Part shown: positions 6,001-34,519 of the stretch, piece by piece
Position numbering within the stretch: position 1 is the stretch's first letter
Layout of the letters: every line of letters begins with the position of its first letter
Origin: Bacteroidota bacterium
GTDB lineage: Bacteria; Bacteroidota; Bacteroidia; Chitinophagales; Chitinophagaceae
Assembly: GCA_005883765.1 (NCBI GenBank)
Contig: VBAQ01000057.1
Location: 1-36,339 of the forward strand
DNA length: 36,339 nucleotides
Direction of reading: 5' to 3'
Translations under genes and position numbers: made by a program
The notes under the pieces: model-generated
Seen by the model: only the letters and a program-made list of their open reading frames with translations
Told to the model about the DNA's origin: nothing
The model's database searches: none

Positions 6001-7972
6001 GTGTGTCAGGCATGTTTATTATCTATAGGGTGCAAGTCCCGAATGAGCGTTGTAGTGCGTATCATTAGCCAAGAGCAAGGGTGTCCACTGTGAAGTGGAA
6101 TCTGAAGGAAGCTGGCGGCAAACACTCGAGCTTACGAACAGGAACTGTATAAGAGGCAGGGTTACATGGGTGATGTTGCCAAAGAAACAAAAGCCCGACA
6201 CTGCACAGAATGTAATCAGGTAGATACAGAGGCTGCATGAGTGGAAAGAAATAAACTTACCCTGAGAGATCTTACAGTAAGTTGGCCGAGGGAGAAGCGC
6301 AACCTGAAGCGGCAACGACTTATAGCAATATAAGAGGGTATTGTAAGAAGTCAGCAGACGTCATAGTAAGCCGGCAACGAGCTACAACCGAATCAAACGG
6401 CAATGTGGAGGTCTCACATAAGGACAAAGGACGAAATGTTAGAAGGAAAGGACTATCAGAGAAATTATCAATGACGAAAAGGAAAGAAAGCACAAACGCA
6501 TAAGAGAACTACTTATCTGAGGATAGGCCGGAAGCTGAAAGTAAAAGATAAGAGGAGCTTAGTCAGAGATAAGAATAAATGATGGAACTGCCCGGATGCG
6601 CTATCAGTTAAAGTAAGATGCTGGAAAGAATTATTGACAGAAGAAACATTGAGAAAGCCCTTGTAGCGGTAGAACGCAATGGGGGAGCGGCGGGTATAGA
6701 CAATCTGCAGAGCGATGAACTTCGCCAATTTTTATATACCCACTATCAAAGTTTATGTCAGCAAATACTGGAAGGCACGTACAAGCCAAGGCCTGTGCGA
6801 AAGGTAGAGATACCTAAACCACAAGGCGGAGTAAGAATGTTGGGCATACCTACTGTAACAGACAGGATGCTGCAACAAGCCATACACCAGGCGTTGAGCC
6901 CGGTGTACGAAGAACAATTTGACAAAAACAGTTTTGGATTCCGTCCCGGCAAAAGTGCACATCAGGCGGTAATAACTGCCCAGCAGTACATTAATGCAGG
7001 ATATGACTGGATAATAGAACTGGATTTAGAAAAGTTCTTCGATACAGTAAACCATCAAAAACTGATGGCATTACTAAGTAACACAGTAAAGGACAAACGT
7101 ACATTAAAATTGATCAATGCTTATTTGCGAAGTGGAATAATGGAAGGCGGCGTGGTAAGCCAGCGAGTAGAAGGCACACCACAAGGCAGTCCGTTAAGTC
7201 CACTGCTTTCTAACATCATCTTGCATGAGTTAGACAAAGAGTTGAATAAGCGAGGTCACAAATTTGTGCGGTATGCGGATGATTGCAGTATTTATGTAAG
7301 GAGTGAAAAATCGGCGAAGCAAGTAGCGGAGAGCATCATCAATTACATTGAGAAGAAGCTGCGACTAAAAGTAAACAGAGAGAAGACCAAGATCAGCCGT
7401 CCCACAGGAAGCCAGTTATTAGGCTTTTCATTTTACAAGAAGAAAGAAAAGTATGAAATACGAATCAGCAAGAAATCACTGAGACGTATCAAAGAGAAGT
7501 GTAAACGAATCACCAAATCAAGCGACCCAACACCACAGCAATCAAAACTGAAAAAGTTAGAGGCTGTGATACGCGGATGGGTAAATTACTTTAAGATAGC
7601 GAAAGCGAAGAAAAGTATGCAACAGCTTGATGAAATGATACGAACACGACTCAGAATAACAACATGGCGAAAGTGGAAGCGGGTAAAGACAAAGGTGAAC
7701 AACTTGATCAAATTAGGAGTGGCAAAATCAAAAGCATATATGTGGGGCAACAGCAGCAAGGGAGCTTGCAGAATTGCTCATAGTCCGATACTACGCCAAA
7801 CGCTGGATGGTGAATACTGGCGTCAGGCAGGTTACCGAGGCTTCTACAATTATTACAATTGGCAAACTGATGGGCAGCCATCATTATTCTAACAAACCGC
7901 CGTGTACCAGACCGGTATGCACGGTGGTGTGAGAGGACAGGTAGCGCACTAATTGCTACCTTCCTACTCGAT
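6001..7972 (+). mobile_element. Group IIC self-splicing intron with its own maturase
   Basis: The proposed 5' end GTGTG at 6001 matches the bacterial GUGYG start. Bases 6001-6617 are non-coding and hold ribozyme domains I-IV, including the familiar stretches GGGTGCAAGTCCCGAATGAG and GGAATCTGAAGGAAGC. After the reverse-transcriptase gene comes a domain V-like hairpin at 7895-7927 (ACCGCCGTG / CACGGTGGT with inner TACC / GGTA and a TG bulge). The linker GTGAGAGG and a domain VI hairpin (AGGTAGC / GCTACCT) follow. The 3' end is taken as ...CCTACTCGAT at 7972. Its position behind a terminator and its GsI-IIC-like protein both indicate class C. The boundaries are inferred by motif, not by alignment. 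Confidence 0.85.
6618..7892 (+). CDS. ltrA: Group II intron reverse transcriptase / maturase (class C)
   Basis: The 424-residue protein begins MLERIIDRRNIEKALVAVER and has RT blocks in order: GFRPGKSAHQAV (107-118), ELDLEKFFDTVNH (134-146), EGTPQGSPLSPLLSN (185-199) and the catalytic YADD (219-222). The X/maturase domain follows around residues 310-370 (IRGWVNYFKIAKAKKSM), with the GIIM-type C-terminal region. No HNH endonuclease domain is present, which is normal for class C. From memory it resembles the GsI-IIC reverse transcriptase along its length. It aids splicing of the host intron and retrohomes it to terminator sites. All motifs are intact, so it may be active. Confidence 0.95.
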   Translation: MLERIIDRRNIEKALVAVERNGGAAGIDNLQSDELRQFLYTHYQSLCQQILEGTYKPRPVRKVEIPKPQGGVRMLGIPTVTDRMLQQAIHQALSPVYEEQFDKNSFGFRPGKSAHQAVITAQQYINAGYDWIIELDLEKFFDTVNHQKLMALLSNTVKDKRTLKLINAYLRSGIMEGGVVSQRVEGTPQGSPLSPLLSNIILHELDKELNKRGHKFVRYADDCSIYVRSEKSAKQVAESIINYIEKKLRLKVNREKTKISRPTGSQLLGFSFYKKKEKYEIRISKKSLRRIKEKCKRITKSSDPTPQQSKLKKLEAVIRGWVNYFKIAKAKKSMQQLDEMIRTRLRITTWRKWKRVKTKVNNLIKLGVAKSKAYMWGNSSKGACRIAHSPILRQTLDGEYWRQAGYRGFYNYYNWQTDGQPSLF

Positions 7973-30462: not shown

Positions 30463-30500
30463 AGCCAAAAGCTATCCCGACTCGTCGGGACAGCTTTTAG
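30463..30500 (-). terminator. Strong hairpin after tuf, possible terminator
   Basis: AAAAGCT-TCCCGA / TCGGGA-AGCTTTT (13 bp with one internal mismatch, loop of 4), 80 bases after tuf. The trailing T run is short, so it may be an RNA-processing or repeat hairpin that lets tRNA-Trp-secE-nusG be read through. Confidence 0.5.
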
Positions 30501-32358: not shown

Positions 32359-32434
32359 AGCCACTTCTCGGAATCGAACCAACGACCTTCCCGATTTCAC
32401 ATCGGGATGCTCTACTGTCGATGCCTAAACTGGC
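32359..32434 (-). pseudogene. Decayed tRNA-Thr copy with a replaced anticodon arm
   Basis: The 3' half and T loop are nearly identical to the adjacent tRNA-Thr(TGT). The acceptor has a G-G mismatch (GCCAGTT / AAGTGGC), the D stem is broken (GGCA opposite GAGC) and the T stem has one mismatch. Between the shared flanks GAGCA and AGGTC the anticodon arm is TCCCGAT-GTGAA-ATCGGGA (32389-32407). The loop lacks U33, so no normal anticodon can be assigned. It lies 4 bases behind the intact gene. Confidence 0.75.
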
Positions 32435-34199: not shown

Positions 34200-34240
34200 A
34201 CAAAGAAAGATAGCTGCAAAGCTATAAACTTTGCAGCTAT
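34200..34240 (-). terminator. Hairpin after rpsU, probable terminator or attenuator
   Basis: A perfect 12-bp stem ATAGCTGCAAAG / CTTTGCAGCTAT with a 7-nt loop, followed on the minus strand by CTTTCTTTG. It lies 22 bases after the rpsU stop and before the xer gene. The T tract is interrupted, so termination may be partial. Confidence 0.6.
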
Positions 34241-34262
34241 CCAATAAATTAAAACAACCAGA

Positions 34263-34460
34263 TTAACTTTCAATCTTTCCGCTGGCAATTTTTTGCCTGT
34301 AGACCGCCTTCAGTACTTGGTTGCGACGCCTTACAGAAGGCTTTGTGAAACTCTGCCTTTCACGCAACTGCAGAAGAATTTTTGACTTCTCAAATTTCTT
34401 TTTATACTTTTTGAGGGCCTTATCTATGTTTTCACAATCTTTAGAGTCGATTATCAGCAT
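34263..34460 (-). CDS. rpsU: 30S ribosomal protein bS21
   Basis: A 65-residue S21: LIIDSKDCENIDKALKKYKK, FEKSKILLQLRERQSFTKPS and SVRRRNQVLKAVYRQK. It binds near the 3' end of 16S rRNA. In Bacteroidota it helps cover the anti-Shine-Dalgarno sequence. It is preceded by a perfect Shine-Dalgarno sequence in a small hairpin, unlike the other genes here, which suggests autoregulation by S21-deficient ribosomes. Confidence 0.97.
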   Translation of the reverse strand: MLIIDSKDCENIDKALKKYKKKFEKSKILLQLRERQSFTKPSVRRRNQVLKAVYRQKIASGKIES

Positions 34461-34468
34461 AATTTTTT

Positions 34469-34484
34469 ATACCTCCTTAGGTAT
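34469..34484 (-). promoter_or_regulatory. Perfect Shine-Dalgarno of rpsU inside a small hairpin
   Basis: The minus-strand RNA reads AUACCU-AAGG-AGGUAU, a 6-bp stem with loop AAGG. It contains AAGGAGGU, complementary to the 16S rRNA 3' end, with 9 bases between the AGGU and the AUG. It is the only strong Shine-Dalgarno I saw in the window. The hairpin would partly hide it. Confidence 0.75.
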
Positions 34485-34491
34485 TTTTTAA

Positions 34492-34509
34492 TCCCGATTT
34501 TTATCGGGA
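34492..34509. repeat. TCCCGAT hairpin in the rpsU leader
   Basis: A perfect 7-bp stem TCCCGAT / ATCGGGA with loop TTTT, directly between the rpsU -7 box and its Shine-Dalgarno hairpin. The arms are the same as in the decayed tRNA at 32389-32407. Confidence 0.8.
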
Positions 34510-34511
34510 GG

Positions 34512-34519
34512 CAAAGATA
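34512..34519 (-). promoter_or_regulatory. Candidate rpsU promoter -7 box
   Basis: Minus-strand TATCTTTG matches TAnnTTTG exactly, about 52 bases before the rpsU ATG. The resulting leader would contain the two hairpins at 34492-34509 and 34469-34484. Confidence 0.5.

Follow-up and report, generated by a model that had tools for sequence, protein, structure and literature searches.

Extended Shine-Dalgarno sequence and a small predicted hairpin in the rpsU leader of a Chitinophagaceae bacterium

Hairpins that sequester a Shine-Dalgarno (SD) sequence are a well-known means of translational control, in which the SD is made less accessible by a stem that covers part of it. In Flavobacterium johnsoniae, reporters and biochemistry show that ribosomes lacking ribosomal protein bS21 prefer the mRNA of its gene, rpsU, by way of an extended SD, and the same paper describes an effect of the bS21 mutation Y54A on strong-SD reporters and predicts the same rpsU autoregulation for about half of the Chitinophagales (PMC9976891). 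In Chryseobacterium-type species with an altered anti-SD, the letters upstream of rpsU are described as changing to match (PMC8710568). Autoregulation of rpsU by bS21-free ribosomes is thus already published and is not new. The main text of PMC9976891 does not contain the word "hairpin" and has "stem" once, in another sense; in the open-licence literature searched, we found no report of an SD hairpin on rpsU in Bacteroidota. What is new here is only the small hairpin predicted over the SD, in part of the family.

The rpsU gene described here lies in a window of 36,339 nucleotides, positions 1 to 36,339 of contig VBAQ01000057.1 of a Chitinophagaceae genome (GCA_005883765.1); its features are collected in Table 1. 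Its product matches Pfam PF01165 with 53.8 bits and is the one S21 match in this draft genome of 403 contigs. The closest solved relative is 7jil chain z, a 30S ribosomal protein S21 (E 2.9e-15), and in the gap-free alignment to this chain Tyr54 is kept. The start codon is the ATG that begins at 34460 on the minus strand. Downstream on the same strand are a xerC-like integrase gene, an hpf-like gene (PF02482), tRNA genes, and the genes for EF-Tu and NusG, which we take to be tuf and nusG from their sequences, and a riboflavin-synthase-like gene (PF00677) diverges from rpsU on the opposite strand. Elsewhere in the window, a group II intron spans 6084-7892: Rfam matches assign 6084-6256 to group-II-D1D4-3 and 6316-6432 to D1D4-1, and a reverse transcriptase/maturase reading frame comes next, at 6618-7892.

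Table 1. Positions of the rpsU gene and of its leader elements in the window
Feature	Coordinates	Strand	Remarks
Terminator-like hairpin, 3' of rpsU, ahead of xerC	34208..34242	-	
rpsU, ribosomal protein bS21, 65 aa	34263..34460	-	Open reading frame; PF01165; single S21 match in genome
Extended SD AAGGAGGUAU	34469..34478	-	10 bp to own 16S tail, -14.8 kcal/mol
Predicted SD hairpin AUACCU-AAGG-AGGUAU	34469..34484	-	6 bp, -5.4 kcal/mol alone; 4-bp core UACC/GGUA recurs in relatives
3' arm AGGUAU	34469..34474	-	Then 8 nt to ATG
5' arm AUACCU	34479..34484	-	Letters identical to part of 16S tail
TCCCGAT palindrome TCCCGATAAAAATCGGGA	34492..34509	-	Close to the probable 5' end of the mRNA (inferred start site); dispersed-palindrome copy
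-7-like box TATCTTTGC	34511..34519	-	Presumed Bacteroidota-type; TAnnTTYG(C/T) string

The 3' end of the 16S rRNA of the same genome was read as GGCTGGAATACCTCCTTTTTAGAG / GGAATACCTCCTTTTTAGAG, with AUACCUCCUU as its tail. The first-pass annotation had reported a strong SD on rpsU and the absence of SDs at the other genes of the window, and both statements hold. The duplex of AAGGAGGUAU with the own 16S tail (13 nt), as calculated with ViennaRNA, lies below the -13 kcal/mol threshold of PMC9976891, which was set with another program. The comparison set comprised 33 non-overlapping ORFs of at least 90 aa in the window, with the first ATG crudely assumed as start. Their best SD pairing is -7.3 kcal/mol, only three reach -7 and none reaches -10, so that rpsU outranks all 33 of these window ORFs. 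Genome-wide, AGGAGGT N4-9 ATG is not enriched, with 43 matches versus 38 for a reversed-pattern control; rpsU itself is outside these 43, its spacing in that pattern being 10 nt. The 10-mer AAGGAGGUAU occurs seven times in the genome versus 12 times in the reversed control, and its location alone sets the rpsU copy apart. The spacing from GGUAU to ATG had been called ideal. At 8 nt it falls within the family range of 4-13 nt (mode 7), which is normal but nothing special.

The locus thus resembles F. johnsoniae rpsU, as described in the main text of PMC9976891, in an extended SD matched to its own 16S tail beyond -13 kcal/mol, in SD-poor neighbours and in the Tyr54-bearing bS21. By this analogy, the extended SD of rpsU most likely serves to let S21-lacking ribosomes make more S21. 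Autoregulation by S21-free ribosomes had also been suggested in the first-pass annotation; the anatomy and the precedent support this idea, which is already known.

The rpsU leader is short. From 5' to 3', it consists of TATCTTTGC, the palindrome TCCCGATAAAAATCGGGA, an A-rich stretch, AUACCU, AAGG, AGGUAU, AAAAAAUU and AUG. We take TATCTTTGC to be a Bacteroidota-type -7 box, and 269 of 278 rpsU leaders have a TAnnTTYG(C/T) string no more than 75 nt from the start. A pyrimidine-C-pyrimidine group (YCY) stands 3' of this box in 251 of the 269 leaders (34502-34519 in the window; leaders L003-L295), with or without SD and in many families of the class, and is perhaps a start-site feature of the rpsU promoter. 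At other genes, one of three box sites carries YCY, a number too small to weigh. Since the group is also present in SD-less leaders of other families, YCC after the -7 box was ruled out as a pairing partner of the SD.

A second hairpin, built on TCCCGAT, had been noted upstream. It is present, but it is unlikely to be part of the control. TCCCGA-N2-10-TCGGGA has 105 copies in the genome, against two for a reversed-pattern control, and TCCCGATAGCTATCGGGA is a frequent form among the listed copies. Three copies lie in the window (34492-34509, 32389-32407 and 30475-30490), where 0.01 are expected. Among 15 copies inspected, 10 are between ORFs and five inside, by crude ORF calling. Over 97 family genomes the copy number is patchy, from 0 to 105, with at least one copy in 92. 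Dispersed REP-like palindromes are a known class, which the TCCCGAT hairpin resembles as part of such a 105-copy set, and the copy at rpsU is an ordinary member of it. The same-genus leader L007 lacks this hairpin, and we rejected the hairpin as a control element on these two grounds. Of the 153 distinct family leaders, six have a 5' hairpin with an energy of -3 kcal/mol or below, and its sequence differs among them; the count passed over leaders in which no box was recognised or the stretch was shorter than 12 nt.

The hairpin that the first-pass annotation had placed over the SD, with 6 bp and the SD in its loop and 3' arm, is recovered as a prediction. It would cover the 3' half of the SD, with AAGG as the loop. 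In folds that start at 34507 or 34509 and run no further than about 40 nt into the coding sequence, the predicted pair probability of arm and SD is 0.81-1.0. With 71 nt of coding sequence it is 0.54-0.61, and the minimum-energy fold is then a different one; adding the 21 nt that precede the -7 box, which are probably untranscribed, gives 0.19-0.59. The predicted hairpin thus dominates the short-leader folds but not every longer fold, and this context dependence lowers our confidence in the readings that use the hairpin and raises it in the alternative that the hairpin has no effect. When the SD was kept and the upstream letters were shuffled, none of 100 shuffles matched the pairing probability of the window. 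For the short leader, the total folding energy carries little weight, since 15 of 200 shuffles fold equally well. The arm was also considered as an extension of the SD, and this was ruled out: the arm is unpaired with the 16S tail, and an A there would make a stronger match (-17.0 vs -15.8).

The letters AAUACCU are common to the leader and the 16S tail, as they would be if the AUACCU arm were an rRNA mimic, a repressor site for free bS21 or for the bS21-bS18-bS6 pocket. However, any sequence that pairs with an SD resembles the anti-SD, so the likeness is expected, and the feedback in F. johnsoniae is already explained by bS21-free ribosomes. We regard such a mimic as the least credible of the explanations.

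We compared the leaders of 278 rpsU loci, 173 from the family and 105 from other families of the class. After merging of identical last 45 nt, the family loci gave 153 distinct leaders, from the genomes whose bS21 is most like that of the window (listed top matches plus the best 80), so that the fractions below are not unbiased. A strong SD (-13 kcal/mol or below) is present in 119 of the 153. GGUAU lies within a site of -10 kcal/mol or below in 120 family leaders (120 of the 121 with such a site); these 120 are the strong-SD leaders of the arm counts, and 33 leaders are without a GGUAU SD. A strict motif, defined after inspection of the leaders as U(A/G)CC facing GGUA across a loop of 3-10 nt, is found in 56 of the 120, where 7.6 are expected (sd 2.7; no more than 20 in any of 1000 shuffles); the loop is mostly 6 (39 leaders) or 5 (11 leaders). 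The motif lies no more than 30 nt from the start codon in 58 of the 120 SD leaders versus one of the 33 others, and this single match is part of a promoter box.

Two broader tests gave weaker results. Counted as contiguous pairs from the first G, in the first chance test, at least four pairs are present in 64 of 120 leaders (39 expected) and at least five in 37 (20 expected), an excess weaker than that of the strict motif. In a shuffle test of pairing probability, six of 120 leaders are individually significant at p 0.05 and 12 at p 0.1. The mean SD pairing is 0.57 versus 0.47 in the shuffles, a difference hard to read since the null also shuffled promoter letters, and this test counts against the hairpin as much as for it.

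The conserved part of the stem is small. In the 71 leaders whose (A/G)CC lies at loop 5-8, the base facing the A of GGUA is U in 55, whereas the fifth pair is unconserved (A or G in 39), and positions 5-8 outward are A in 58-64. Without conditioning, 68 of 77 have A or G before CC. We consider the SD hairpin a prediction that recurs in some members of the family, with only 4 bp conserved. Compensatory changes across relatives had been put forward as a check on the stem. One-sided G for A, which would leave a G-U pair, is seen in six of the 71 leaders, themselves chosen for A or G at that position. Two-sided covariation cannot appear, since the 16S tail fixes the SD side of the stem: all 29 readable family tails begin AUACCUCCUUUU (a further locus, L324, has no tail) and GGUAU is nearly invariant, so the comparison cannot decide.

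The arm is absent from 64 of the 120 strong-SD family leaders. Outside the family, it is absent from all 16 strong-SD leaders among the 105 loci, which were those among the matches listed and were scored by the best of five tails, not by their own tail. In this respect these leaders differ from the window. Since so many strong-SD leaders do without it, the arm appears not to be needed for bS21 feedback, and the hairpin looks like a lineage-specific modulator rather than a required part. Armless leaders being the majority also favors the alternative that bS21 feedback works through the extended SD alone and that the hairpin is an inherited leftover that hardly affects output, which we consider a serious possibility, if not the one we lean to. 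This alternative does not readily account for an arm that interrupts an A-rich tract, is missing where the SD is missing, and keeps a fixed distance (among 74 cases of (A/G)CC preceding GGUAU by a loop of 5-9, the loop is 6 in 47 and 5 in 11).

Among 93 genus-labelled genomes from 63 genera, 42 have SD and arm, 38 have the SD without the arm, and 13 have no such SD. By genus, 22 have only leaders with the arm, 29 only an SD without the arm, nine no such SD, and three are mixed. In genus g35, the leader L240 has neither SD nor arm, and both elements are present in L016 and L294. In a 16S tree built from 29 genomes, seven of eight arm-labelled tips fall in one group of nine, with g58 elsewhere, and there are at least four changes between arm and no arm over the 27 labelled tips. 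This was a quick tree, with seven of 26 inner branches starred, two of 29 tips unlabelled and some genus labels carried over from congeners. The arm-bearing genera thus belong mostly to one 16S clade, with few independent origins, and because of this the leader counts overstate the statistics.

The hairpin energies of the 56 motif leaders range from -3.0 to -6.0 kcal/mol, and that of the window ranks third. These values are small relative to an SD-anti-SD helix of about -15 kcal/mol, which, like the context dependence of the window prediction, speaks for a hairpin of little consequence. A marginal stem of this order over the SD would also suit an RNA thermometer, in which warmth melts the hairpin and raises bS21 synthesis. 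Thermometers of the fourU kind pair through a run of U, which is lacking here; the conserved part is limited to 4 bp, and the same-strand neighbours, the xerC-like, hpf-like and tRNA genes, include no heat gene. We consider a thermometer very improbable.

On balance we lean slightly toward bS21 feedback through the extended SD that is tuned by the small SD hairpin in this organism and part of the family. Of this, the SD, its match to the 16S tail, and the arm and its recurrence are observed, and the hairpin is predicted. In such a scheme, ordinary ribosomes of the phylum would use the extended SD poorly, bS21, bS18 and bS6 holding the 16S tail. In bS21-lacking ribosomes the tail would be free to form the 10-bp pairing, rpsU would be translated and bS21 restored, as shown in F. 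johnsoniae and as we infer here. The predicted hairpin would hide GGUA(U) of the SD and leave AAGG exposed in the loop, and a free 16S tail might bind this AAGG first and then displace the arm, as in toehold opening. By subtraction of one predicted energy from the other, SD pairing would bring a net gain of about -9.5 kcal/mol with the hairpin instead of about -15, and leaky use by complete ribosomes should therefore fall. The hairpin may in this way lower leaky initiation and shift the threshold of the response, although such a set-point role is a guess. It would differ from the usual SD-sequestering hairpins, which likewise place a stem over part of the SD, in that most ribosomes here are expected to be SD-blind already and the hairpin would act on a special subset of ribosomes.

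A more specific version of the tuned feedback is speculative, and we think it rather unlikely: that one Chitinophagaceae clade has placed a toehold switch on the specialised-ribosome feedback, a hairpin that repeats the SD-anti-SD helix within the mRNA, with the arm as a copy of the 16S tail and AAGG as the loop, so that only a freed tail can start displacement. If this were true, the leader would be a sensor of ribosome composition with an RNA-encoded set point. The locus contributes detail to one of the few clear examples of specialised ribosomes in bacteria, and the leaders with SD and arm, with SD but no arm, and with no SD form a natural set for asking how mRNA tunes the response to ribosome composition. 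If the hairpin is idle, the site is an ordinary instance of the published mechanism.

Two groups of unusual leaders were seen elsewhere in the survey. Nine Chitinophaga rpsU leaders (L062, L063, L068, L074, L084, L087, L089, L090 and L096) have AAUAAGAGGCAAAAAUU in common and carry neither SD nor arm. In L185 and L234, both outside the family, two SD-like blocks stand in tandem before rpsU, AAGGAGACU and then AGGAGGUG.
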